This document shows, one piece after another, positions 6,022-56,910 of a stretch of 64,000 nucleotides of DNA (its first letter is position 1; every line of letters starts with the position of its first letter). Under the pieces are notes generated by a model, which saw only the letters and a list, made by a program, of their open reading frames with translations, made no database searches and was not told the DNA's origin. Source of the DNA: Phytoseiulus persimilis (taxonomy: Eukaryota; Arthropoda; Arachnida; Mesostigmata; Phytoseiidae); assembly GCA_037576195.1 (NCBI GenBank), contig CM075103.1, positions 30,650,723 to 30,714,722 on the forward strand, given 5' to 3'. Made by a program: the position numbers and the translations under genes.

Positions 6022-6376
6022 AGGTTATCAGGGGCATTTCTTGAGTGTCATTCTGTAGAAAGGCCATCGATCCACTAAATCCACGAGGGTTTCTTCTTAG
6101 CGGCTCAAAACCACGATTTCGCGTGGGCTACAAGTCTCACTTCTGGGAGAGCGTGTTTTCGATACAACGTGGAAGTTCGCACGAGGCAGTGCGTTCGAAG
6201 AGCTGACTCGAGACTGTAACATCCGAGTCTCCACGATTCCAGCAAACAGTTCTGCTCCTCCAACGGCGCGCTTCAAGGTAGCTGGATCTTTCGGAAGATT
6301 CGCGCTGAGACCGCAAAGAATGATTTGTCGATGTTGCGTTTTGTGGAATTTTAGCTCGAATTAGGCGTCCATTCCC

Positions 6377-7395
6377 TTGAAGTTTCCTCTACGATTGGTG
6401 ACGACGCTTCATCTTCGACCCATGGTCGAATCCTATAAGTACTTGTGGATCGAAATATCGAACGAAAAAGAATACTCATCCCAACACTGTAATGGGCCGA
6501 CGGATGAGGCCAACGTAGCGATCAAAAGACTCAACGCGAGAACTCTTTGGAGCTTCAACAGGTTTGAAGTATCCAAAATTCTTTGGAAAGCCACCGCAAT
6601 ACCACAGCTGACCAATTGCAATAGGGTGTTCACCATGCTTAGAAGGCTGAGAAACCTCATTGAAGTCAGACAAAGGGACGCGGTCAGGTGGGCCATGGGC
6701 ATACAATGGAGACCATCAGCAAAAGCATGTGTTCCGAGTAAGTGAAACAGATGAAGCCATCCAGATGGCCCAGAATGGTACTCACAGCAACTGAGATAAC
6801 AAACACAAAAGTGAAGGCAATAGAGGGACTCAGATGTTTGAGAACCCAGTTTGACCTTGAAGATCTCAGTCTGACCAGAAATACACTGAACGAGCCAATC
6901 TGGAATATGTTCCGCAAGAAACTCAAAACGAGAGTGCGGGACTTCACATGGCGACGAAATATGGATTCCAGATCCACATTAACTGCTTATCGACAGCTCA
7001 AAGAGACTCGAGGTCTCGAGAGGGAACTGTACGATAACTCGCGGGGCAGTCGGTCATTGGCTCTAGCCAGAGCAGGAATGCTCAACACCGAGAGCCGACA
7101 GAACTCCCGGGACCGTTCCTCAGACATAAAATGCGCGCGATGCGGAGCCCCAGAAACCGACAATTATGTCATTCTGGAATGCGAGAAAGGAAAATACCCC
7201 CAGACGGAATTCCCGTACCGACTAGGACTTCACCCCGATTCAACAGCGAGGAACCTGAGAAGGACGATGGATATCCCAAGGCGATGGGAGAACAACGAAA
7301 TATTATCTGTGAACGCAATACAATTCACCCCAGAAATGAAAGGGAACATATGTGCATATGTAAGGTCCAATAAAATCAAATCAAAACAAATGTCC
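6377..7395 (+). mobile_element. Non-LTR retrotransposon (LINE) 3' fragment, decayed
   Basis: Two overlapping frames read like the C-terminus of a LINE ORF2. The first (6377-6745) has a thumb-like segment of the KYLG-V-IS type (here SYKYLWIEIS), then WSFNRFEVSKILWKA and RQRDAVRWAMGI. The reading then shifts frame (VSETDEAIQ lies in another frame near 6737-6765) and resumes in the 6742-7590 frame. That frame ends with a zinc-knuckle-like CARCGAPET...ILEC at about 7132-7183, where the usual His is Tyr. An A-rich end (AAAATCAAATCAAAACAAA) near 7370-7390 probably marks the 3' terminus. The RT catalytic core is absent, so the copy is 5'-truncated and dead. The clade (I/R1-like) is only a guess. Confidence 0.82.
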
Positions 7396-7599
7396 CCTGG
7401 CAATGTTTTCGACCGATTCGAACGGGGGCACCAGACTCATCGACGCGTGGGGGAACCTGTTGTGGCAGAAAACCGCGCCGTGACAGCTCTGGGAAAAATC
7501 CCGGGACTGTTCCCTGCTGCAGACAGAATTCAATCAAGGAATCTGTTTGTTTTTGCGGACCACATCGGGCATTGCTGGATGAGAAATTGAGTTTTTTCT

Positions 7600-13703: not shown

Positions 13704-14077
13704 GTAAGTAATTTTTCGGTTCGAACGTTTTCCAATAGCTGGATTAGCTTGACTTTGACGCGTAAGCGGGCGAGCGAGCGAGCGAGCGAACCAACGAACG
13801 ACCAACAACGCACACACACACTGTCTCTCGACGTAACCCTTTTCTCTGGTGGCAATATAACCTTGTAGGGCGCAGACATCATTTCAAGTCTTAACGAACT
13901 CAAAAACTGGTTTCGTACGGCATTGGGTCTCCATCCAGCCACCTTTCTATCACTGGTCTGGGTGACGACGGTGGCGACGACAACGACATTCATTTTTTCT
14001 TCCGTTTTCAAGGAGGACACCCTCACCACTGCTGCTTCTGGTAACCAAAATCGGAATACGGAAACCTACAGAGACGC

Positions 14078-15074
14078 ATGGCAATAAATTCGTTTGGGCA
14101 AACCCTCATAGACTTCGGAGACACTATGTCTCAGATTAAGGAACCGAGCCCTGATTCAGTAATCAACGTCGTTGATGACGAAGACGACCAGCAGGAACCG
14201 TCGTCGAGTGTCAGCGACGCCTACACCAGGGCGAGTCAAAATGTGACTACTTCGACGTTTGAGGGTAACCTCGGCCATCCCCCTGACCCGTCTAAACTGA
14301 TGTGGTCCCTGTTTCCGGGAGGAACCCAAGCGTTCGGCATGTACGAGATCCAACGCATGGCCATCATCCGCGCCATGAGCCAAGGACCGATGGGATATCC
14401 GATGCCGTCGATCCAATACCCGCCCAGTTATATGCCCAGGATGCCGTACGATGTTCCGATACGACCCCAGTTCGACTCTTCAACAGTTAGTCTTACCACG
14501 AGACCACGCACAGATACGAACGCAGTAGAGCAACCCCTACCTTGTCCTGTCAGCGAACGGCACTCCGCTGTCGCCGCTGCAACTGCACCGATGGACTCGA
14601 AATCCGCAGCAGCTGTGGTAGCTGCTGCAGTAGCGGCGGCGACACCGGCGATGATGAAGCAAGTTGCCGTCGTTCATCCCGTTCAATCGAATCGCAGGCC
14701 CAATTGTGCGCGATGCAGGAACCACGACTTGAAAGTTGCCGTTAAGGGTCACAAAAGACGCTGCCCCTATAAAGACTGTGAGTGTGAAAAGTGTATTCTC
14801 ATCAAGGAACGACAGATTATCATGAAGAAACAGGTTGCTCTCCGGCGCCAGCAGGCACAAGACCAGGAAATGGGCGTAACTCAGGTTCGCTCTATCGACG
14901 ACCTACCTATGAGCTACCTGGGCCCTATTGAGCTTCCTGGGACGAACGTTGAAGTATCGAAAGAAAAACGAAGTAGCGGCAGCAGTACCCACGATATTGC
15001 GGAAAGTGATTTGCCTCCTATAAAGCGACGAAATTTGATTCACGCCAGCGCGAGTTCAGCTTTCTCCTCACTGG
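14078..15074 (+). CDS. dsx: Doublesex/DMRT-like transcription factor, main coding exon (dsx1)
   Basis: DM-domain zinc-finger DNA-binding protein of the doublesex/Mab-3 family, which directs sex-specific transcription in the nucleus. The DM domain is at about residues 207-255: C210, C213, H216, H225, C229, C234, C236 and C239 have canonical spacing, followed by the recognition helix [19 protein letters not shown]. The N-terminus is acidic and low-complexity, with an Ala-rich run at 164-190. The ATG at 14078 is the first after an in-frame TAA in the leader. The exon starts at 14013 and ends at 15074 with donor GTAAGT (CTG G|GTAAGT, phase 1), so the frame reading on to 15133 is intronic. The arthropod Dsx dimerisation domain is not in this exon. 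Its closest relative here is the minus-strand gene at 31 kb. The DM residue after CRNH is Asp rather than the usual Gly in both copies. Confidence 0.93.
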
Positions 15075-18000
15075 GTAAGTTCCTTTTTGCCATACTATCA
15101 CTCAAAACCGCTCCCGCTGCCATGCATAGATAGAGCGGAAACGTTGTGGAGCCGGCGTGCGGAATGCTCACGTCGAATTCTGTTCCGTTGGAGTCTTAAT
15201 TGAGACCGGTGTCGGCCCGATACGCGCGATTAAGATGAAAACTGCCGACACCAGACTAGCGGGACTGGAGCGTTCACATGCGCACGTCTCAATGTTGTTC
15301 TTCGCGTGGTTGCAACATCGATTGCAGACGGAGGATGACATCGTCACCAGCACAGAAACAAAAACTGCTCCGAGATTCGCCCATTTTGAGCAAGTTGCTC
15401 AACCTCCCCAGGCAGTTGCGGAATCCCTACCCAGTGGCCGAAAAAATATCTCTGTGTGACGAACGGAACAGTACGAAGTAAAGCCATCGAGCCGCTGAAC
15501 CCCCGGAATCCCTCCCTCTGATGCTGTCCCAAGGATCGCTGTTCCCAAAATGGAAACCTGAATCCGGGGCTGTACTCGGGCGGAACCCCGACGTATCTCT
15601 GCTGACAAGTCCTAATAGTTTTTCCCATCAGGCCGAGGTGTCAGCTCAGGCGAATGCTCGCGGAAACCACGTGTTGGCGTTAGTTTAGCAGAATAGCGGC
15701 CACTTGTTCGGTCTTGTCTTACGCGTATTGCCAGTCATGACCTACGCTCCGCTCCAAACTGGAGCCTCACCGCTCAGTTCTCGCTCCCCTCATTCGACCT
15801 CTTTGTCTCTCCCGGAATCAAACTCCTTCGCAGTGGAGTATCTCCTGGTGGAAAAGCGTTCCGCGTGAGACATTTAATCGAGTCCGTGTCCCAGCTCAGA
15901 TCCTGCGGAAAAGGATTTTCTACAGCGCCGAGGGGAACACAGCGGAAGTAGAAATTTTGATCAACGAGAATCGCTGATTTCCCGGAGACTGTATCTTCTT
16001 CTGGTGAAATGAGGAAAATAGCTTGTGCGCTGCGGTCCCGCTTAACAGTTGCCCAAATTTCTCACCTCTGAACATCCATCGATACGAGTTTCCTCATGAC
16101 TTGTTTGCTCATTGATGAGCCGTTAAGACGCATGAGGAAAGTTTCGGAAAAGTAGCGCGAATCGAGAGCCGGCACCGAACAACTGATGCGCCATTATCAA
16201 TTCATGGTCAGTCGAAATTTGTCCTAAAGTGGATGCGGAGATGGGGATTAGTGAAGACCCTGCCACTCGAAGTCTGTCGGGATGTTCTATGTCGCGAATC
16301 GTTTCGCTTCGCCCCCCCCCGTGGGGGATCCGAGCTTTCCTCAAAAAATGACTATCTGGGCCTTTTCCAGATGAGAGATAGGGAATGCGTGCTAGGCTGG
16401 CTGACGTTTTTTCGTGCCTTCGTCTCCTCGTCTTAGTAGTTCTCCATGGACCTGGATAGCACATCGCCACCTGAGAGTCCGTCCTCTCAGGGCTGATGCC
16501 AGTCGTCATGGAGGGGAACAGGTTACACTCTTCCGCGTACATGCTCACGGTCGGCCTCAACTTGAGTACGGCATCCGGCGTTCCTCTCTGACGCGTGATC
16601 ATTCCTCCACAAATGAGGAGCTTGAAACTTCTACGATGGTGTTTCACCATGGAATCTTAGCCACGCAGATTTTCGCTTCTGGGAGTCTCTGCTCACCTCA
16701 TGTACGCGGAAAGCGGCGAAGGATCGATCGATGCACTCCATTCCAGTATTTCGTCAACCCATTATCCTGTCAACTGATCAGCGCAGGCGCTCTTGAGCCG
16801 CGTTACCCTTCCCCTCACTTCACTCGGCGCAAACCAAGGAGACTTCTAGGCAGACTCTGAACTCCCGATGCGAGAAATACTGATGCCGACAAGTCGAAAT
16901 CGGAGCCGCGTCGGATAGAGGCCCAATTTCGCAAGTTTTGCTACTGAAGCAGATTGGACGGGAGGGTACCCCCATTTTACCAGCATGCCCCCGACAGGTG
17001 TCCGTATTCGGTGGTCACCCGAAGAAGGAACCGGCCTCGATTTTCTTGAGCGCATGCGCTCACCCCGATCCCCTATCGGCCTCACGAAATGATAACCGTC
17101 GCGAAAACGGGTCTCCGGGGGTTCTGGATGACGACTCTAGCATCCAGGTTTGATGGCGTGGTTTCCCACAGATTACGTACGTGGATTGGGGTTCCATTAG
17201 CCCTCCTATTGATCAGGACGCAGATTACCGACGAGCTACCCAGTACGTATGAGACTCCAGTTTCCGAATGTGTCGAGCTTTCAAACATGACGATTCGGTA
17301 CCGCTCCCGTCCTGAGCCAACCGGAAATCGCCGCTGCTCACACATTTCCATATGCTGGGACCCTGATCACTATGAAAGCTCGACTCGTGATTTTCAAGAC
17401 GCTGAACGCATTCGTGGTCGTTTGAGAGAAACATGCACATCAATTTGTATCAACAGGACTCTTGCTATCGTTTCGACGGAAGTTGTTCGGTGTGCGGGGG
17501 GTTTGATTAGACGACCGGAGCGCGAGCGAGCCGTCGAGCATACAATTGGAGTGCCCGTTCTCTCAACACATGTTCCTAATTGTTCGCCATTCGGGATCAG
17601 TACGGACATGGATTTTCTGCACGCATCTGCATTACTGCTCACACATGGTCCTGTCGTCCAATTAGAACAAGAGAAACTCGCATGTGTTTATTCCCTCGGA
17701 AGTGTTGTGTCGGCAAACTCTTGAGTTCGCGGAGCGATACTCTAAGATCTCTGTTTATCAGCGACATTCCGGAAAGCATTCTAAACAATCCCAGAACTGA
17801 CTGCTAGGATTTTTTCCCCGCTGAGAATCCGAGATTGTCCTAAATCTTGATATCAAACTGTCAGTGTGTTCTAAAGCGACATCCAAGACATCGGTCACAG
17901 CTGAAATACGATCCGTTTACTTTGGAGAGAGCTCTGACTTGAGTCGTGCATGAACTCAAAACAAGAGCACAAAATATTGAGACGCGTGGGAACGTCGATG

Positions 18001-30972: not shown

Positions 30973-31869
30973 TCAAGACCCGTCGAGCGAAGCTTTCGCA
31001 TTCGCCTCGATGACTCTCCGTCGCTTGATCGGTGGCAAATGACTCTCGGTGGTGTCGTACGTGCTGCTTGGGATCCATGGGGTCGTTTGAGGATTCTCGG
31101 CCGAGGTCGCCGGGGACTGTGTAGAGGCGGAGGCATCGATGCCTTCTTTCTGGGTGTATTGCCGCTTGATGCTGTTTTGTTTCTTCATCAGAACTTGTCT
31201 CTCTTTGATTAGGATGCACTTATCGCACTCGCAGTCCTTGAACGGGCATGTTCTCTTGTGGCCCTTGACAGCGACTTTGAAGTCGTGGTTTCGGCAACGG
31301 GCGCAGTTCGGCTTCCGGCTCATAACGGCTTGATCCTCTGCTTCCAATAGTTTAGCGGCGGCCGCGGACGTTCGCGACGCTTCCTGTACAGTCGAAGAGT
31401 ACTCCGGTTGCATGTATTGCCTGTAGGCTTCTGCACTGCTGACATTGCACGACCGGGACAGTTCGTCGAAGTGCGATGCAAGAGGAATCTCCGAAGGCAT
31501 TGCATGCACAAAGTCTGGGTACTGGATCGATGGAATCGGGTATGCAGCGAGCTGTCTGTGCTGCTGTTGCTGATTCATCGCGCGGAAAATCTCCATGCGC
31601 TGCACTTCGTATAGATAGTTCGAGGAAGCACCCGGAAACAGGGGCCACATTGTTTCGGACGGAACGCGGTAGCCCAAGCCCAACTCCGGGACCGATGATG
31701 TTACGTGCGGCATCGAAGAGATGCACGCGTCGCTTGCGCTCGACGATTCTTTCCGCTGGCTGCCCTCATCGTCGATAATGTCGATCACGGGACCCGGTAT
31801 TTGCACCTCGTATTGAGACATACCGTCCCTGGAGTCGATTGGGAAGTCTCCGAAACAGTTCTGTCCCAT
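30973..31869 (-). CDS. dsx: Doublesex/DMRT-like transcription factor, paralogue (dsx2)
   Basis: A 298-aa DM-domain protein, paralogous to dsx1. The DM domain is at about residues 186-232 with zinc ligands C189, C192, H195, H204, C208, C213, C215 and C218. Conserved blocks outside it are MSQ near residue 17, VIDIIDDE, LFPG, YEVQRMEIFRAM, YPIPSIQYP and SHLPPIKRR. The Ala-rich run of dsx1 is replaced by a Gln-rich stretch (99-106) and a different linker. The start is the first ATG: the frame is open to an acceptor at 31925-31924 (TTTTCATTCCAG), but the predicted leader exon ends in an in-frame TAA. The frame stops at TGA right where dsx1 has its donor; only a weak GTCTTG is present here. The gene is convergent with dsx1. 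Sex-specific use of the two copies cannot be read from DNA. Confidence 0.93.
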   Translation of the reverse strand: MGQNCFGDFPIDSRDGMSQYEVQIPGPVIDIIDDEGSQRKESSSASDACISSMPHVTSSVPELGLGYRVPSETMWPLFPGASSNYLYEVQRMEIFRAMNQQQQHRQLAAYPIPSIQYPDFVHAMPSEIPLASHFDELSRSCNVSSAEAYRQYMQPEYSSTVQEASRTSAAAAKLLEAEDQAVMSRKPNCARCRNHDFKVAVKGHKRTCPFKDCECDKCILIKERQVLMKKQNSIKRQYTQKEGIDASASTQSPATSAENPQTTPWIPSSTYDTTESHLPPIKRRRVIEANAKASLDGS

Positions 31870-32178
31870 ATGCCTCTGAAGCTGATCGATGGGTATTCGG
31901 ATATTCTCAAAGCCGATATTGTCCTGGAATGAAAATTGTTCCTCGAAGAGCAGGTGCTCGCTGCACTAAAGCAGGACTTTTCGAGACGGAAAGTGACCGC
32001 CAACTCTCATCCAGTCTAGCCGCGTGCATTCGGCTGGCTAGGACTGGAAACGACATCCGCGCTCACCAGCCAACTACGCGATCGAGGAGGATGACATCAG
32101 AGGGCACGTTGCTTCTTCGAGCGAGTCGGTGCCGACCGAGCCGAAGGGAACCTGTGTGCGTCTGTGGCAGCTACATAC

Positions 32179-32399: not shown

Positions 32400-35300
32400 A
32401 GTTAGTCTGGCCCTCGAGGAACCGACCGAGCGAATTCAAGATGGAAAATAAAGACACTCTTAGACAAAGTAACCAGAACATGTCAAGAATGTTATGATAT
32501 CAGCGGTTCCCAGCGCTGCTAGTGCCTCCCGGCATTCTCGGTGGACACCCTGCGCGGAGACCGACTTGGGCAAGAGCCATCATGGCCGTCGGTCTCGCTG
32601 AGATTTCGTCATCCCTACGAAACATCAGATCGATTTCATACGGAAACTGAACTAGGGGTTGCAGCTCAATTTTCGTATGAGATACGATCGTCACAATCTA
32701 TAGCTTGCAGTGAAAAGAACTCAGGGTTTCCCTATTCTGTGAGTGGATCCCGATTCCGTACACTTTGCGGCCATGGGTTTCGTGGATCTGGAATGCTGGA
32801 GATTGTATCGGAATTCGATCGGGAACGTCACCCAGAGTTTCTTCCCTCTTCCGGCTCAATGAGGTGAATGTTGAAGACACAGCTGGCTACGGAACCATGA
32901 TTTCCGCCTGACTTCTCGAACGCCGGAATTTCTCGGAACATCTTCTCCGGCTTTGTAGCGAGCCATGCGGATATCCTCCCCAATCGGACACGCGAGTAAC
33001 ATGCTTGTAGGGATTCTGAGAACGTTCTCAAGTTGAAACGGTAGTACATTATTCTCCGTCAACGAGTCCATGATGGCGGTCGAGGAGTCGGGAATTGAAT
33101 TCATAAGTGCCGAAATGGAGATGGCAGCACAAATAATCCGCTTCTCAAGATTTCGCAGTTGGTTGACAGACGTCAGAACGCTCCTTCGTTAGCTGGCGGA
33201 CCTAAGCAGATCGGGGGGCTGTGTTGACTGTACTGAGCTCACAAGACTACCCTCAAAAGACTTATAACTCGATTTAGCGCCGTTAAGGTCCTTCCGCAGG
33301 TCGACCACAATTCGAAATCCGGATCAACCTAGTATTCATCGAGGCTGGAATCTGAATTTCCTGAGAAGCCCGCAAGTATTGGGAAAATGAGCGACCTGGT
33401 CAGTATTGACAAAATCGGATTCCAGTCAGATCCATGGGCCCATGGGATCTATCGAACTCTGATTAAAAACTTGCCGAGTCGAGCATAGCGAGGCACGGAT
33501 CGATAGCAACGATCGTCTTCGTAACCTCCGCGAACCCCCCCTGATGAAAATATCCTTGAAACGAAATCACAGAGATTGTTCAACTCACGTTCTTGCTCCC
33601 TCTTATAATCAAAGCCGAACTCAGTTCCTGCCTCCCGTCCACAGCCACGGGGTTTCGGGGCTGCCAACGGAAGACAGTGTTGTATATCGACCGGTGGGGT
33701 CTCACCTGGCCATCCTCGACGAGGAGTAAGATTGGACTCAGATCCCCAAAACCTGTGATGGGAGTCCCATAGTGTCTCGTCGATTACAAACGAGCACGCT
33801 TAAATTCGAGAAGGCGCTTCCAGTCTGCGAAATACATCGGCTGAAGCGATAGTCAACACTGATTTCGATCAATGGAGTAGTTAGAGCTCCGGTCGCGGCA
33901 CGAGAATCGCAAACCGTTGGAACCGTTTGCATCGCGCCTGCAAACCTGTTCAATCGCATGAGATGAGCCGTCTCAGAGAAACAAGTCAGGGCCTTTTTTT
34001 CACAATGGTCCATCTCGTTCTGTTCTAGCCCGCGCGTTACTACATGGCACGGAAAGAAAACGAACTGTAGAAGCTCGTCTTTCGGTCCACGTATGCAGTT
34101 AGCGTGAGGCTATAGCTCATCCGCAAGGACAGTTGGAGTTTCTGAACGCGCCAGGTACGGCAGAAACTTTGTCACCAATAGTGGAGCTTCCCGCCCCAAC
34201 TAAACCGCAAGGTAATACAGCCTCGAGCGGCTGAAAGGAAACTGTGAGCACAACAGGAAACTTCGGAGTGGATCACGAGCTCAACATCGATGTCGAAGAT
34301 CAGGGCTCCCTGATTTTGAAACAGTCAATCGCTTATAGTTTCCATTACTTGGAAAACGAGCCAGTCATGGGAGCTCACAGCCTGGAAGCAGAGCTCGTGG
34401 AATAGGTGCCAAGGTGTCGCGAATCAGCTGTTGATCATGAGAGCGAGTCGAGCGAGCGATTCTGAATCCATGCCACTGCGACCCGAGTCAATCGATGCGC
34501 CGAGGCTCTTGCGTGTCGGTATTCCTGGGGAGGGCGCATGCCTCCAGAGTGATCCTCACGATTTTTCTTCCAGGTTTTGCGTGCCCTGCACCCACTGGAT
34601 CCCCCGCACGCATTAGGATGCGTATCTCGTACGCTTAGCAGCCTACGAAACCTTATTGCTCCAGTTGTGAACTCTTCCTGTGTGAACTTTCCCCAATGAG
34701 ATCACACTCCAAGCGCCGAGTTTTGGGGCGCTCGGGATTCTGTCGGTGCAGGCGAGCGCGGCCGTTCGAGTTCCGGTTCGGAGCCGGATGGGGAGCTCTT
34801 CATGACGATCCTTACGGTGACCTTCCCCGGCAGAAATAGGTCACATAGCAGAGTTGTCGAAGTAGAAGATCGAGCGGGCCAGCCGGCGTTGGCCAAAACT
34901 GCCATCGGTACACAATGAGATGCTCTCTCTCTTCATGGAAATTTCAAGTACGAGAGGAAAGAAAGATGGTCAAGCTCTCAGGGATTATCCCTATCCTAAC
35001 ACCCAGACTTGCTTGGTATCGACGACGAGTCGAAGGTAAAGGGTTTCTCCCAATCGATCGCGTGTCCTCTGTGGTCGCTGGAACCCTTCTGCTGCAGACA
35101 TTGGAAGAACTTCGCGAGCCATTTAGCTGAATCATACACGGCTGGAGGAGCCCGAGGGGATTGGACGAAGTCTTACCCCTGCCTGTTCAAAACTCGTTCT
35201 TTGTACCGAAATCCAGACCGATTCAACCGTGCGAATAATTTGTGGCAGGATTCAATACGCCAGTGAAATTATCAGAGCCAAGCTCCGTGGACCATGTTGG

Positions 35301-40300: not shown

Positions 40301-40392
40301 CGTCTGGGAGAGAGGATGTCAACGTCTGGGAAGAAGCTACTGAATCGCTGCAAATGTCTATATAGCCTCGGGCGGGCAGCGATTCGCTCAAA
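40301..40392 (+). promoter_or_regulatory. SRWDL gene A promoter
   Basis: Two direct copies of CGTCTGGGA (40301-40312 CGTCTGGGAGAG and 40323-40334 CGTCTGGGAAGA) precede a TATATA box at 40359-40364. An initiator-like TCA (A at 40390) follows 31 bp later. Gene B has the same motif with nearly the same motif-to-TATA spacing (34 vs 36 bp). Confidence 0.65.
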
Positions 40393-40415
40393 GCAAGTGA
40401 CCAACCTTTAATGAG

Positions 40416-40637
40416 ATGGCGTTAGCGCTGCCGATCACGAAGTCAGGGTTCGAACTCTATGGCTTCAGAGCAACGACGCGGCTCAGGAACGTTTCCACTT
40501 GCAGCGTCCAATCAAGTTCATCGGACAAATCACCGGAGTGTGCGCGCACTGGACTCAGACGCAGTCGGTCGACTCAGAATATCTATCAGTCTCGTTGGGA
40601 CCTCACTGACCTCTGCTCATCCGTCGGCAAGAGGTAG
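40416..40637 (+). CDS. SRWDL-box small protein A (73 aa), unrecognised family
   Basis: An intronless gene for a small basic, Ser-rich protein. I do not recognise the family, but it is clearly related to the genes at 42456-42635 and 46976-47239. Shared with gene B: the N-terminus MAxAxPIxKSxxxLY, a central RxRN(V/L)STCS (residues 22-30), and the C-terminal Y(Q/K)SRWDLT...GKR (57-73). RLRNVS fits the RxRxxS consensus of AGC kinases. No signal peptide or TM segment, so cytosolic or nuclear by default. The start is the second ATG of the transcript; a four-codon uORF (40411-40425) overlaps it. Promoter and AATAAA flank it in the right order, giving an mRNA of about 0.67 kb. Confidence 0.8.
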   Translation: MALALPITKSGFELYGFRATTRLRNVSTCSVQSSSSDKSPECARTGLRRSRSTQNIYQSRWDLTDLCSSVGKR

Positions 40638-41043
40638 ACAGACACGCCACGCTAGAAACGCGTTATCATGTCAACGTTCACAAGTGTTCGAGGCTCCAAT
40701 CGCCCGCCTGATGACCCGATCTGCGGAAAAGACTGACATCTAGAAGCCGTTCGATGGATCGAACTCAAGTCGACGACCAGAACCGGAAAGCCGCTGACAA
40801 CCACTTCGATGCCGCCTGAAGGAGCGGTCCCTCTTCGGATGTGCTCTCGGCTCGAGGAAAACCACCGCCTGTGCCGGTATGAACCATGGACCATGATATT
40901 CATTCGCTGGACGCCGGGAAGCTGTCGGCAGTGTTGGATCACGAGCTAACATTCCACCTGGGATCCGCTGAAGCGGGAACCACGATCGGATACAGTGTGT
41001 TCATATAACGAAGTCGATGTGAACCTCTCTGCTTTGATTGATC

Positions 41044-41049
41044 AATAAA
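41044..41049 (+). terminator. Poly(A) signal of SRWDL gene A
   Basis: AATAAA about 400 bp after the stop codon, in TTGATCAATAAAAGG. It is the first such signal downstream. Confidence 0.55.
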
Positions 41050-41059
41050 AGGATCTCGA

Positions 41060-42089
41060 ATGATCGCTGTTCCGCTTGGGAACCGGGGTAACTCCTTGGA
41101 GGCTCCTTGGCCTACGGACGCGGCTGTGGGGGACGGGGATGGACAGTGGGTCGAAACCACGGTGCCGAACGAGCTGAATTCCGAGAGAGCAGACGTGAGA
41201 CTTCCGCAATCAGAAAGTTTCCGAAACCTTCCCGCTGTTTGTTGTTCCCCTCAAGATAGATCGAACTAAGTCCTATTCCGATTATAAATCCGGCTTTGCC
41301 TATCTCCCATGTGGTCAGAGCGGTGCTTGCGGCTGTCGGGCTCAACGACCTGCGCAGTCGACAGAAAGATGTTTCCGAATCGAGAAGAAATTATTGGATG
41401 GAGTCCAGCTCATCCAGCCCGCCGATCGTTCGACCGAGCGCACTTTATTGAAGCCGAGTGTAAGATCAGCCTGTTGCCCAACAGGTAGTTCACGCGACTT
41501 GCGGAGTATTTAGATTATCCCACGGGTGACAACGCTCTCAGATAAGATCCTCGGATGATGTCGACCGCTACCAGCAAGCGTGATGATCTCGAAGTTGCCT
41601 GAGCTATGACCGCAGACACCCTGGTCTTCTGCTCCAGACTCCGAGAACCACTCGAGTCTGCCATTTCGATGAACGACGCTGTCGATCTAATTTTTGCCGC
41701 TTCGGTTCAGGTTTCACTTCTACATGAGTTCCGTGCCCTCATCGCGCTCGATTGGATTCCATTTATTCCCTAATCCTTCCCATCAGAGGGTGGTGTAAGT
41801 ATACCTACACAGCAACCTCTGTCGAGCTCGAGTACCTCGACGTCTCGAGGGAGGGCAATCAATGGGATTCTCGAAATTATGAGGACGTGTCAGACCGGTC
41901 ACTCGTGAGGGGAAATGAAGTCATAATTGATTGTCCGGAATCTCTCCAGAGTTCCGCGCCGATCTCATCCGAGGCAGGCAACAGTGGATTCCGAGAGATG
42001 ATCCATCGGAACAATATCTGAGGAGAGAGGCAGAACCATCCTGATTCGAATTCCTAAAGAACGAAGAATTCATCTCATATGATAACTCC
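41060..42089. other. Spacer between SRWDL genes A and C
   Basis: No supported gene. A minus-strand ATG frame of about 49 codons (start near 41617) is followed by TTTATT at 41443-41448, but nothing else supports it. Confidence 0.45.
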
Positions 42090-42095
42090 TTTATT
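42090..42095 (-). terminator. Poly(A) signal of SRWDL gene C
   Basis: TTTATT on the plus strand (AATAAA on the minus strand), about 360 bp past the stop of gene C. The spacing is like that of gene A. Confidence 0.45.
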
Positions 42096-42455
42096 TGGAC
42101 TTCAGCTGTAGTTTGAAGTCGATTCCAAGATTCCAGAGCAATTTACAGAACTTCAATAACTACGTGATTCCATTGGCATCGTGGAGGGATGCTTGTTCCG
42201 AGCTGACCGCTGCATCGTGGAAAGGGATAATTCCTCGTTCCTTAACCACACATTTGAGTCAATGTTCTGTCCTGAAGTGTGACAATGAATTTCCGTCGCA
42301 GACGATGATGCCCGAGCAGCTGTCACGAGTCGGGGGCACGTTCTCGCACTGCTAGTCTCCAGTCGCAGAAGTTCCGTTCCTTCCAGACGAAGCACTCAGA
42401 AACCGGACGAAAATTGGGAGTCTCTCGGGGCCCGATTTCTGGCACGGGGCCATTG

Positions 42456-42635
42456 TCACTCCCTGCGATTCTCCGTGAGGTCCCAACGGCTCCGGTAGAT
42501 ACCTTGGTTCTCGCGACACGAGCGAAGATTCGTCACATTCATAAGCACGGGGAACATGAATTCAGTACGACAGTACCGTTTCTCTTCGTGCCGGCAAACG
42601 ATTCGCAAAAAATCCAGAGCGTTGAGCAAAGCCAT
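42456..42635 (-). CDS. SRWDL-box small protein C (59 aa), unrecognised family
   Basis: Third member of the family, found because the minus strand encodes GIYRSRWDLT near the C-terminus (residues 45-54). The DNA over this stretch is about 80 percent identical to gene B. It starts MALLN, like MALAL of gene A, has a central LMNVTN where A and B have LRNVST, and ends TENRRE instead of GKR. The Ser-rich middle of A and B is missing and residues 6-30 do not align, so the N-terminal half has diverged strongly. TATA, ATG and AATAAA are in correct order on the minus strand. Intronless. Function unknown; it could be a decaying copy, though the frame is intact. Confidence 0.72.
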   Translation of the reverse strand: MALLNALDFLRIVCRHEEKRYCRTEFMFPVLMNVTNLRSCRENQGIYRSRWDLTENRRE

Positions 42636-42663
42636 CCTGCACAGTTAGCTTGAGCTGTTGTCA

Positions 42664-42749
42664 CCAATGTTGGCTTCAGCGGTTTTGGGACGAAAATATA
42701 AACCAGCTCGCGGAACTCAAGTAGTCGAACACCCGCACCCTGGGAGAGA
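42664..42749 (-). promoter_or_regulatory. SRWDL gene C promoter
   Basis: A TATA-like TTTATATT on the minus strand (42702-42695) lies about 65 bp before the ATG. CTGGGAGAGA occurs on the plus strand at 42740-42749, so it is inverted relative to gene C, about 40 bp upstream of the TATA. Confidence 0.55.
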
Positions 42750-42789
42750 GTTCTCTTTGAATAGGAAGCCAACGAGTAAACACTCTTCG

Positions 42790-45700
42790 CCAACACACAC
42801 CCCAATATCAAGGGCCTGATGTCGAGCAGCAAGATGCCACTCGAGCACGACGCGACATGGAGCAGACGATAAGACTTCCGTGGGTCGCCGTCCGTTCTAC
42901 GCCTGCTTATGTTCGGTACCGACGCTTTCGTTGAGCAAACACGTCGAAATACCACGAGATCCGAAAAATCCACACCCAGAAGTTCAGGGCTCAGTCGTCC
43001 ATGGGGATGAAAAATCGGAGCTGTGCGAGACCAGTCCTGGAAAATTCCCATGGACTATGCCCTGAGCGATTCGTCAAGCGGGCCAAGAGACGATCAGAGT
43101 CCTGGTCCACCACGGACTTCGTGGACGCAGTGTTCGCGATGTGAAAGAGCTCGATTTGGCGTCGCAGTGCCATCGCGTGCAAACTCCTCAGGAAGGGTTC
43201 CAGCTTGGGAACGCCTTCCGGAAAACTTGACTCCTATGAAAACTCACACACAAACCCTCCCCGTATACAGCCATGATTTTTCTAGCAAAACATCCGCCGG
43301 CGGAACTCTCGATAAAAATTGTGATATCATTGTTGTCCATTGGCGCAGCGGAGACCAGCCAAGGACCCAGGCCCTGCGACTAACCTGTTGAGCCTTGGCG
43401 TATGTCTGCATTGCGTTACCTGCTCCACGTGAAATCTTCCATGAGTCCCGGAGCTCCATTCTGCGGCTAATACGATGAAGTTGACCGACTCCACCTACCG
43501 GTTCGATCGGATGAGTCCGCTTTGTTTCCATACGGACTTTCGATCAATGTATTGCATCAGCGGCTCATGTCTCTGGAAACACGATCCCAGCGACAATGAA
43601 AATCGAAACTCGCAGCAAGTGCTCGCTCGAAGCGCTGCGATGCCTCGAGCTGGAGTCACCTCGCTGGAGTCTCAGTTTGCCGGAGTTTTCGTGTAAGAGC
43701 CAGAGCAGAGGCCTCAATGATGACCTTCCGGTTGAGAATCCGAGTCGAGGAATCGATGAAGTGACGAGATTAAGGTCTCATAATGGGTGAAATATCGAAT
43801 TATTCAATGGATACATCGCATGAATGCTCAAATCACGTGCTTCTATCCCGAAGTCGGCCATAACTCGTCAAGTTGTGGAATTACGGTGGCACAAATCATT
43901 CGCGCATCCTCATCATGGAGCACCGTCTCCAAATAAGGGTTCTGGGAACGGTCTCCGCCGTTGCAGGATCGGTCAAGAACTCGATGGGCTGGAAGAGCTG
44001 GAGATATCGTGCACGCGATTAACCTTCGCGGAGGTTTTGCACGCGGCGCTACTCTCAGCCTGGCGGGAGCTCGAAGGACGCTCATCCGTATCTACAGCAG
44101 TCTGCCCCAGTCGATCGATTGAAGGAGTTTGTTCGAGCACTCTGTTTGCAGGTCGCGAGTCGTCTGGCGTAGGATACGTGAGACCTCGCTTGCGTCAGCT
44201 CTGTTTACACAAAGCTCCCATTGCTGGGGAACCGAACATCCCTCTCGAGCAAGGCACGTCATCTGCCTTCCGGCGGAAGGTACCCTCAGCCTGACACAAC
44301 ACCCGCACGACCGGTTCAACAGCCTCAATTTCCATATTCTTGTCTGGGATTTATCTCCTGGCCCTTCCAGGTGAGACAAGAATACGGTACACTCTACATT
44401 CTGCGTAGGGAATGTTGTTCGATGAACGCAGACTCAAGGTCGGCGCTGTCCCGTGGATCAGGGCATGGTTGAGGCTTCTCTAAACCGAGCATGCTTCGAA
44501 GAAACCGCTGGAAGTCGGTCGCTAGGCTAGGGGCTAAGACCGTGAGTTTGTGAGTCATGGAGCAGCGTTGGCGTCCAGATCTTTCCCCATGGTGTGGCAG
44601 CTCATTTGACAGGAAGCTCCTCCCCCAGAGAGGTTCTCCAGCGGATCGGCCCGATCTATGAATCCAAGGCGACGTCCGGACCGGCCTCGCCGTATGCGAT
44701 CTTCAGCAAAGTTATTCTAGGAAACATGCCAGACTAAAACTGTACTCGATCGAACTTGGAACCGAGACGGAAAACCAGCCGCGGTCGCATCCTCCAGAAT
44801 TATCCAAGGAATATAAAAAAAATTGTTCCCTTGAACGATCAGCTGATGACGTTTCGAGGTCGTCTAATGGGCATGTCTCCCTCAGCAGAAACCGCGGATT
44901 ATCATAATTGGATTATGGCTTGGAATATATATCTCTTAGACGTCATACTTCTTCTACCCGAGAATCTCGTGCGCTGGAGTGGATTCGGCCAATAGCATGC
45001 AATAGTCGAGGTATTTCAAAGGGTTTCGATGCGCATCGAGGGCACTGTTTTTGGAAACCTCTCACGGCTTCCCGGAAATCCATTACGTTCCCTGGCTGGG
45101 GATCACTCTTCTAAGGAATATGGCTCCTCAACTTGTAAAACTGTCAAGAATAGAAGTCAATCCTGCTGGGATCACCCGCTAGCGGTTTGAGATTGAAATG
45201 AACCAACACGGCTCGAAGAACCAACCTCATAAGCTGAGCCCGGAGGTATCATCGATCATTGGCTTCATCAGAGAACAATAGACTCCCAGAAGACTTTTCG
45301 AGAATCACCTCATGCTTCCCATGCCGACGTCATTCGGGTTCCACTCATGACCTTCGCACCTAGCGGATAACATGCGATTGTTTATAACCAAGCGGTGCTC
45401 CACCGCACCGTATTCGGATACATCGTGTCAACCGATCGTTTCTAGGATCGCGGGCGTGAGAGACTGATCAGTTGGTTTCGAGTTACTTTCGTTGCTACAG
45501 CTCTGAGCGACTCGAGGACCTCTAGGGTGAGTGTCCTCCGCTTATCCCACCAGTAGTAGCCTTGAACTGCTCACTGTCATCAAAGAACGGACAATGATCG
45601 TCTCATAAATAAAGACAACGTCAATGAACCAGAGGTCAAATGGGGTGAGGGCTCCATACCTGAATTAGCTCACACTTGACAGGGAAGGGTTGTTGCTCAG

Positions 45701-46849
45701 TGTAGAGCTGTACTACTGTATTGTGCTCTATGAGAATCCCTGACCTCTGTTTGAATTCGTGGATTTGTATATTTCTCGCTCTCGACGGTCCCCACATCGG
45801 AGGCTTTGTTGGTTTCCGCGAGGAAACTAGCACGTAGAACGTGGGGTCTACGACTTTGTCGTATCCGGAACATCCAGACTATCGTGTCAGAGCTCTGCTG
45901 ATTGACGAATGGAAAGTTTCTGCGGCTGGAACACATACATCCCGGAGAGGTCATCCCGTCGAGTCTGTTGAGAGGAGACTCATTAGAAAGCAATTCTCAT
46001 CTACTGTGTTTGACTGGATGATCCTTGAGGAGTCGAGCAGACCTGAAAATGTTCACGAACCAGCAACGTGCATTCCTCGTTTCAAAGCGCTCGGATACAC
46101 AGACAATGGCGCCAGGATTTGGAGAACCAAAATAATTCCCAGGATTTGAGGGAGCGAACCGATTCGATTGCGGGATTCCGCTCGAGAAGGAATCCCCGAG
46201 GTGAGTCGTTCCCGGAAAAGAAACATCGCTTTTCTTCCAGGCTCCGGCGGTCTTAACGACCACCATGACGTATATCATATTCGCTCAAATGAGAGAATCG
46301 TGACCTGATTGTAAAAAAAGTGACATCATTGCATGCGTAATAGGCACTATGCAATAGCTCAAAGCTCAGCACTTTTCGCTACTGCGAAATTTCCACGAGT
46401 GTTTTTCAACGTTGCCGATAAGTCGAGAGCTGAGAGTGTTTGGGCGTCGCGTCTCCGTGGATCGGCGATTCATGGAGCCCGACGGCACCGTCGGTAGTTG
46501 TACGTGACGAGCAATAATTGAGAACAATGTGAGCTCGCACGTGACCGGCTCCCTCATAATCCAAGACTTTCGCACTTTCCCCACGGCGCGCTCGAAAAAT
46601 CTGTATGATGCCTGCAGCTTAAGCTTTCGAGCTATTTCTGCTGGTTTCGACGGTTCAGCTAAATATAGCATCCCGAGGTACCGGTAGACTTGATACATTG
46701 ATTTTCTGCTTGCATGCGTTTGAATGTATCGAGTGAGAACGTTAACAGCCACAATTTGACGACTGATAAGGAGAAGGGGAGCTGTCGCGTCTTCATGAGT
46801 GCGCAGCGAGATCGCGACGATATTTCTTCTTTCTTTGATCTCTACAAAG
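42790..46849. other. Spacer between SRWDL genes C and B
   Basis: No supported gene. The longest frames are 43824-44294 (+, 156 codons) and 46366-46866 (-, 167 codons, TTG start). The latter abuts gene B's promoter and would be divergent from it, but has no ATG start or similarity. No fourth SRWDL copy was found. Confidence 0.45.
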
Positions 46850-46920
46850 CGTCTGGGAGAGGGCAACTGTCTGGCTCTGACTCTTAAATACTCCCGCGTC
46901 TAGAAACGTCGAATCATTCC
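46850..46920 (+). promoter_or_regulatory. SRWDL gene B promoter
   Basis: CGTCTGGGAGAG (46850-46861) and a partial second copy CTGTCTGG (46867-46874) precede a TATA-like TTAAATA (46884-46890). A consensus initiator TCATTC follows (A at 46916), 32 bp from the TATA start. All parts match the layout at gene A. Confidence 0.7.
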
Positions 46921-46975
46921 ACTCTACGGATTACTGAGGTGAACAACTACTGTTAACAGTCTTCAAGCTGTCGAT

Positions 46976-47239
46976 ATGGCCTTCGCAGTTCCAATCATGA
47001 AGAGCAACTACAACCTCTACGTGCTGGAGAAGCCCAAATCCAGCCGTGTCCGGAACCTGTCCACGTGCTCTTCGAGTTTGTCGTCGTCTTCCCGTGGTTC
47101 CAGGGGGAGCCAAAATTCACTCGTTTCGACGACCTCCTCCACAACCTCCGGCTTTTCACAATCATCCATGCCTTCGGAAGGTCTTTACAAGAGCCGTTGG
47201 GACCTCACCAACCCCCGAGCCTTGCTGGGAAAACGCTAG
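46976..47239 (+). CDS. SRWDL-box small protein B (87 aa), unrecognised family
   Basis: Intronless, small, basic and Ser/Thr-rich, and the longest of the three paralogues. The N-terminal box MAFAVPIMKS aligns with gene A; RVRNLSTCS (residues 24-32) keeps an RxRxxS phosphorylation consensus. A Ser/Thr-rich linker (33-66) follows, then the C-terminal YKSRWDLT (71-78) and GKR end. No TM segment, signal peptide or Cys pattern suggests secretion. The ATG is the first after the predicted initiator and the TAG at 47237 is followed by AATAAA at 47512, giving a compact mRNA of about 0.62 kb. Promoter motifs are shared with A and C, which suggests co-regulation. Function unknown. Confidence 0.82.
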   Translation: MAFAVPIMKSNYNLYVLEKPKSSRVRNLSTCSSSLSSSSRGSRGSQNSLVSTTSSTTSGFSQSSMPSEGLYKSRWDLTNPRALLGKR

Positions 47240-47511
47240 ACTTCATCGAGGAGCATCTGCCTGAGTTACTTCGACGATGAATGGCCTCGGTCTGCCGAGC
47301 ACGGTTCTCAAAGTTGACCCTAGGAAGCGATGTGGCGACTCAGCTCAAAAAATCGCATCTTTCGAGCCCCTGGAACACTTTGGGAGGATCCAGCCGAGCT
47401 GGAGGTTGGCTCCCGCCATCTCGCGCCAAAGCTCTATGTAGTAGAGCGAAAAGCAGCGTCTCGATTCACCAGACAAACGAACAGATGAACTGTGCGTAGA
47501 ATGTTTTGGAA

Positions 47512-47517
47512 AATAAA
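47512..47517 (+). terminator. Poly(A) signal of SRWDL gene B
   Basis: AATAAA in GGAAAATAAATCC, about 275 bp after the stop codon. Confidence 0.6.
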
Positions 47518-47539
47518 TCCTTGTCAACGGAAACCATTT

Positions 47540-56021: not shown

Positions 56022-56910
56022 CGGTTGAACGGATGCGCAGAGAATTTCCGCCATTCGGATAGCGCGAGCCTATCGCACGACCTCGACGCAGGCCCCATTC
56101 GTGCTCGCCAGGTCAGTGCCATGACCGCTCCTGGTCCAGGAAAGGACAGCACTATACACGAGGTACAACGAAGATACAGCCGAGGGGTCCGAAGAAGACG
56201 ACGCAGACAGAAATGAGATCGAGACTGAAACCCTCAACGCATGGCAGGCGCAAAAGGACCCATCCACGAAAGGACGATGGACGTATGCGAGCATACCGAA
56301 TATCAAGACCTGGGTGGGAACAGACTTCGAAGACCTCACTTACCACACCACGCAGATGCGGACGAATCATGAAAACTTCCAGCAATACCTGTTCAGGATG
56401 AGGAAGGCAGACTCGCCTCTGTGCACACTCTGCGGCTCCGGAGACGAAGATGATGCCCATCACAGGATGATCACGTGCGCCGCACTAAGTCAACCGAGGG
56501 GCCATCTGGAAGCAAACTCGATACCGCAATAAGTGGAACACAAGCAGAACTCTGGAGAAGAATGGGAAAGAACGACGAGAAAGGTCGGAAGGAAGGAAGA
56601 TAGCCTACAAAGGAACCGCCAGGTTTGGCGAGCTGTTCCCGCCACAAGGATCGCGAGCGGAACAGCCCAGAAGAGAGCCTTAAGAACAAAATGAGAGGAT
56701 GACCAAGAAGTTGAGAAGAGCAGAGATCGTAGCTAGCGTACATTAGTCCCGAGGATCCCTGGGCTCGAGTGCCCTGGAAGTAATACCAAACGGAGGCACC
56801 TCTCCGAGTCCCCAGACACCCGAAGGCAGAGGAGAGAGTTTTAGAGGGTGCAAGCCCCTCACTGGCCAGGGATGCGCCAGTCTCTCCTCTATAAGCATCA
56901 AAAAAAAAAA
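56022..56910 (+). mobile_element. R1-like non-LTR retrotransposon 3' end with poly(A)
   Basis: One frame runs with typical R1/LOA-type ORF2 C-terminal sequence: IRIARAYRTTST, then PLLVQERTALYTRY, GRWTYASIPNIKTWV and a zinc knuckle LCTLCGSGDEDDAHH...C, ending at TAA 56530-56532. A TGA near 56120 interrupts the frame between ARSVP and PLLV, so the copy is dead even apart from its 5' truncation. A 3' UTR of about 370 bp ends in 11 A residues (56900-56910). It lies about 0.5 kb beyond the 3' end of the cytochrome b561 gene, in the opposite orientation. The long minus frame 57094-56471 is a shadow of it. Confidence 0.88.

Follow-up and report, generated by a model that had tools for sequence, protein, structure and literature searches.

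The locus described here raises two questions: do three short open reading frames that lie near one another and have almost the same closing residues form a family of genes, and what might their products do? They look like a small uncharacterised gene family with two, probably three, neighbouring members that have a near-end motif in common. The window, i.e., the whole 64,000-nucleotide stretch of the Phytoseiulus persimilis genome that was analysed, is part of contig C3 in a genome of 181 Mb and 127 contigs. The AATAAA signals and a pair of DM-domain genes in the window are in keeping with an animal genome. The genome-wide counts given below are either exact pattern matches or candidates scored by the search tool.

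Three short open frames and their signals

The original prediction placed three small genes here, named A, C and B in the order of their positions, and the lengths and strands of all three frames were confirmed, as was their MA(L/F) start (Table 1). Each gene was also said to have TATA, ATG and AATAAA in the right order; this holds for the AATAAA, which follows every stop, and for the TATA of A and C, but the TATA-like box of B is non-canonical.

Table 1. Positions in the window of the three genes, their putative signals and their box regions
Feature	Positions	Strand	Description
Gene A	40416..40637	+	73-aa ORF, no intron needed; paralogue of B
Gene A upstream element	40301..40329	+	CGTCTGGGAGAG, 11 nt, GTCTGG; -115 to -87 from ATG
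Gene A TATA-like box	40359..40364	+	TATATA at -57
Gene A SRWDLT box	40590..40607	+	codons of the box
Gene A AATAAA	41044..41049	+	3' of stop
Gene C	42456..42635	-	59-aa ORF; divergent member or partial relic
Gene C upstream element	42740..42750	+	CTGGGAGAGAG, opposite in orientation to the gene; at -113 from ATG
Gene C TATA-like box	42695..42702	-	TTTATATT at -67
Gene C box region	42475..42505	-	31-nt inverted copy of that of B, 87% identical; SRWDLT codons 42474-42491
Gene C AATAAA	42090..42095	-	3' of stop
Gene B	46976..47239	+	87-aa ORF, no intron needed; paralogue of A
Gene B upstream element	46850..46874	+	CGTCTGGGAGAG, 7 nt, GTCTGG
Gene B TATA-like box, weak	46884..46890	+	TTAAATA at -92
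Gene B box region	47178..47208	+	31-nt partner of that of C; SRWDLT codons 47192-47209
Gene B AATAAA	47512..47517	+	3' of stop

All three genes are preceded by a common word, CTGGGAGAG, which lies at -112 from the ATG in A, at -123 in B and, reversed, at -113 in C. The 11-mer found upstream of C is common to A, and its 9-mer core is common to both A and B, the extra AG being shared with A. Among 5000 shuffles, three gave a 9-mer common to three 150-nt upstream stretches, as did 37 of 20000 random triplets taken from the real window. Within the window, CTGGGAGAG occurs in five copies against 0.74 expected, a count reached in 0 of 100 shuffles. Two of these five, at 6143 and 37062, adjoin no family member, and window tblastn around them gave nothing better than E 3. 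A and B have a longer arrangement in common: the composite GTCTGGGAGAG-N6-14-GTCTGG matches the whole genome twice, at A and at B, with 0 matches for the reversed-pattern control. A and B served to define the composite, so that their own matches follow by construction, and the informative part is its absence elsewhere. Taken alone, the 12-mer CGTCTGGGAGAG is common: the genome has 52 matches, vs 38 for the reversed control. The promoter module common to A and B is found nowhere else in the genome, which makes co-regulation testable.

Paralogy and protein-level constraint of A and B

In our judgement, A and B are real protein-coding paralogues that can be called from their sequence ahead of expression data. 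Their alignment runs from Met1 through the final Arg and has 31 identities in 73 aligned residues; because homology extends from the first residue to the last, both frames look complete. The blocks in common are MA-x-A-x-PI-x-KS, LY, R-x-RN-x-STCS, SSS, Y-x-SRWDLT and GKR; the PIxKS, RxRNxSTCS and GKR end foreseen for both proteins are therefore present in each. When B was used as a query against the whole genome, A was recovered at E 3.1e-5 and, besides B itself, nothing else fell below 0.1 among 10 matches; conversely, A recovered B at E 2.9e-5 and C at 1.5, B alone being below 0.1 among its 10 matches. Across the 181-Mb genome, A and B are each other's best match. Restricted to the window, tblastn placed the pair at E 4e-12 to 6e-12, values obtained without composition correction or a low-complexity filter.

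The manner in which the two sequences differ points to selection on the protein. Identical residues are encoded by the same codon at 12 of 31 positions and by different codons at 19, and at five identical positions the Ser codon is swapped between AGY and TCN; residues thus kept across different codons indicate that the protein is conserved. The proportion of synonymous differences (pS 0.76, 41 of 54 sites) exceeds that of nonsynonymous ones (pN 0.44, 73 of 165; Fisher p 7e-5), a contrast counted as support rather than proof because the alignment was protein-guided, which biases pN downwards and favours pS > pN. Synonymous sites are near saturation across the whole alignment, so the duplication is probably old. 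Reciprocal best, full-length matching combined with a synonymous excess is what was found for A and B when they were tested as protein-coding paralogues. At the DNA level, homology beyond the box is slight, and no words of 10 nt or longer were found in common among the 3' stretches.

Relatives in the collections searched are absent, in agreement with the earlier statement that the family resembles no known protein. In Pfam, none of the three proteins matched a family at the cut-off, the single match being that of B to a silk-protein model at E 0.47. A PDB search with B alone returned no match, and one with an A-B profile returned two, at E 0.29 and 0.91, that were weak and taken as chance. No relative was recognised among 47 pattern matches in viral contigs or among eight in prokaryote genomes. 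A literature search for 'SRWDL' found no paper, and the publications listed on phytoseiid genomes and doublesex, on mite short ORFs and on chromosome-level genomes of predatory mites included nothing bearing on A, B or C. The result is a concrete small-protein gene family that is absent from Pfam.

The SRWDLT box and the status of gene C

The three proteins had been predicted to end with (I/L)Y-x-SRWDLT. The motif is found in all of them, near the end rather than at it: nine residues follow it in A and B and five in C. SRWDL occurs three times in the window, whereas 300 dinucleotide shuffles averaged 0.09 occurrences and never exceeded 2. The identity of the box DNA between B and the inverted copy in C is, as proposed, beyond chance, an exact 18-mer being common to both, and the 14-mer CGTTGGGACCTCAC has four matches in the genome, three of them in this cluster. 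Between 40 and 48 kb there are 13 repeated 12-mers, six repeated 14-mers and three repeated 16-mers, counts equalled in 6, 0 and 1 of 200 shuffles, respectively.

Across the genome, codon patterns of the SRWD(L/F)T type occur at 14 places (10 + 4), close to the 13 (10 + 3) in reversed controls; thus, the SRWDLT motif alone is not rare. Among these 14, the three cluster copies are the only ones that combine the Tyr with CTGGGAGAG at most 600 nt upstream, and the 11 places outside the cluster have neither. A loose Y-x-SRWDL codon pattern matched 13 places (42 for the reversed-pattern control), eight of which translate as Y-x-S-R-W-D-(L/F). The five of these that lie outside the cluster were rejected as members, no further resemblance being seen by eye. 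The codon variant AGTCGATGGGATCTC was likewise set aside; its one genome match, on contig C4, falls at a locus without a visible Y-x-SRWD frame. Within the window, LYIDRWGLT at 33647-33706 (+) matched C, B and A at window E values of 0.05, 0.25 and 1.1, and since its frame has no preceding ATG, this match is probably due to chance.

The box is also more uniform in its codons than its residues demand. All three genes use the same codons for R, D and L (codon-usage probability 6e-4), and B and C do so throughout G, Y, S, R, D and L (8e-4), both probabilities being post hoc and based on usage in two DM-domain frames only. Synonymous identity in the box exceeds the codon-usage prediction, and protein constraint alone does not account for the excess; possible causes are gene conversion among the copies and a further role of the box as DNA or RNA. 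A stronger version, in which the box is kept mainly at the DNA or RNA level, as a binding site or an mRNA element, or by gene conversion, instead of as protein, would draw on the same codons and appears very unlikely. Ser is encoded by TCT in A and by AGC in B and C, Thr by ACT, ACC or ACG, and conservation between A and B spans the whole protein at near-saturated synonymous sites; moreover, Rfam gave no match over 36-50 kb.

For A and B, the family claim of the original prediction has good support; for C, it is carried by the box, the ATG frame and the promoter word only. Homology between A and C covers the box region (21 aa, 62% identical), and full-length homology of C to either A or B was not found, about 21 residues aligning. 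As a query against the whole genome, C recovered, besides itself, only A, at E 0.73 (two matches); in the same uncorrected, unfiltered window search, E was 2e-5 to 3e-5 for A-C and 6e-4 to 2e-3 for B-C. PIxKS, RxRNxSTCS and GKR are all absent from C, and its fraction of Ser and Thr is 0.08, against 0.27 in A and 0.33 in B. C may therefore be a third, divergent family member or else a partial relic: the promoter word and the open frame favour a gene, and the missing blocks favour a relic. Judged on these sequence features, it is probably a gene. The main alternative is that A and B are real genes and that C, as a partial or decayed copy, carries the box and the promoter word and yields no working family protein. 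The short match, the loss of the N-terminal and RxRNxSTCS blocks and the low Ser and Thr content would follow naturally from decay. Retention of an open ATG frame with TATA and AATAAA, of CTGGGAGAG at a similar distance from the ATG and of a box that fits every position of Y-x-SRWDLT argues against it, and we regard such decay as possible, though doubtful.

Possible roles and competing likenesses

The reading that we prefer, with a probability of about one half, is that the genes encode co-expressed regulators acting through short linear motifs, and that the family arose by old tandem duplication, with C inverted. An old tandem duplication would have produced a local family of single-exon genes, and an inversion would have given C its orientation. 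From the upstream CTGGGAGAG element, A, B and C might be switched on jointly, and the transcripts would be translated into short, basic proteins (net charge +7 in A and +9 in B) that are predicted to be intrinsically disordered in A, B and probably C. An AlphaFold model of B has a mean pLDDT of 52 and no secondary-structure elements; as it was built from an alignment of two rows, this low confidence is weak evidence for disorder. Such proteins would likely serve as dosage-controlled adapters or inhibitors. In A and B, the N-terminal MA-x-A-x-PI-x-KS...LY block may be followed by a functional phosphorylation site: RxRxxS/T, present in A and B only, corresponds to the AGC-kinase consensus, possibly also to one for 14-3-3, and makes the conserved RxRNxST a candidate for such a site. 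All three proteins would carry hY-x-SRWDLT as a C-terminal Tyr/Trp candidate docking box. C, with neither RxRNxST, PIxKS nor GKR and with only 8% Ser and Thr, misfits the full mechanism. The excess of synonymous identity in the box, the high number of CGTCTGGGAGAG matches in the genome and the two CTGGGAGAG copies away from the family also weigh against this reading. If the box proves conserved in relatives, it would define a short linear motif not described before, with a partner accessible to pull-down. A broader proposal is that this is an undescribed, co-regulated family of arthropod micro-proteins with a new Trp-centred hY-x-SRWDLT motif, serving as a death or signalling switch and as an independent counterpart of Reaper/Hid/Grim or Bearded; we consider it a long shot.

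The Drosophila cluster of Reaper, Hid, Grim and Sickle invites comparison, as it likewise consists of small clustered genes, and A and B have MA-x-A N-termini. In IAP antagonists of this kind, an N-terminus such as A-(L/F)-A-(L/V) would bind BIR domains after removal of Met. Here, MA opens all three proteins, the mature ends of A and B place Ala third and a hydrophobic residue fourth, and the genes are small, single-exon and clustered. The mature ends ALAL of A and AFAV of B are plausible IAP-binding motifs and ALLN of C is not, so that the reading fits C poorly. MA starts are in any case common owing to the ATGG start context. The strongest conservation here is that of the C-terminal SRWDLT box, and the fly proteins are not known to carry such a box. 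No sequence relationship to them was shown, and a search of the literature for reaper, hid, grim or the IAP-binding motif together with mites or chelicerates found nothing. That A, B and C are IAP antagonists is, in our estimation, very improbable.

A different likeness is to the Cip/Kip inhibitors of cyclin-dependent kinases, which also have R-x-RN(L/V), an RW some 40-50 residues later and a probably disordered chain. No Pfam match to Cip/Kip was found at E up to 10, a range in which the HMMER filters drop most matches above 0.1, and there was no PDB match to solved members.

The Bearded-type Neuralized antagonists of an Enhancer-of-split-like complex offer a further comparison: the proteins here are likewise small, encoded in a cluster and equipped with an RW motif near the C-terminus, fly Bearded-type proteins carry a DRW motif, and the promoter word includes TGGGA, part of a CSL site. 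The RW of the Bearded family sits in a different motif. Its Neuralized-binding motif is NxxN, and an amphipathic helix is also expected; NxxN is absent from A and B, only C having one (NVTN), and no helix appears in the weak two-row model of B. A scan of both strands over the 200 nt upstream gave no CSL consensus, and no Brd, GY or K boxes were found in the 3' stretches of the three genes. We hold a Bearded-type identity to be barely credible. The Enhancer-of-split complex resembles the present cluster in its clustered small genes for poorly conserved small regulatory proteins. In the part available of a survey (PMC4575448), the complex is reported from insects and crustaceans, and no E(spl)-C-related genes are reported from one mite, one tick and two spiders, which also speaks against the reading. 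The Bearded-family and Cip/Kip readings each fail at least one test.

Finally, the GKR end retained in both A and B, as Gly followed by a dibasic pair is a signature of amidation and cleavage, might suggest amidated neuropeptide precursors, a most improbable reading that fits C poorly, GKR being absent there, and that is opposed by N-termini that are not clearly hydrophobic in a simple scan (highest 9-residue hydropathy 1.27 in A and 1.49 in B, each at residue 1; 1.83 at residue 26 in C).

The window contains a second local duplication, a pair of DM-domain genes of the doublesex/DMRT type on opposite strands (14045-15133, +; 30973-31965, -), each with one long open frame and with 137 of 338 aligned positions identical. 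Two further frames resemble, by eye, the C-terminus of a non-LTR retrotransposon protein: 56125-56532 (+), with no Pfam match, and 6742-7590 (+), with a weak zf-RVT match (E 0.07).
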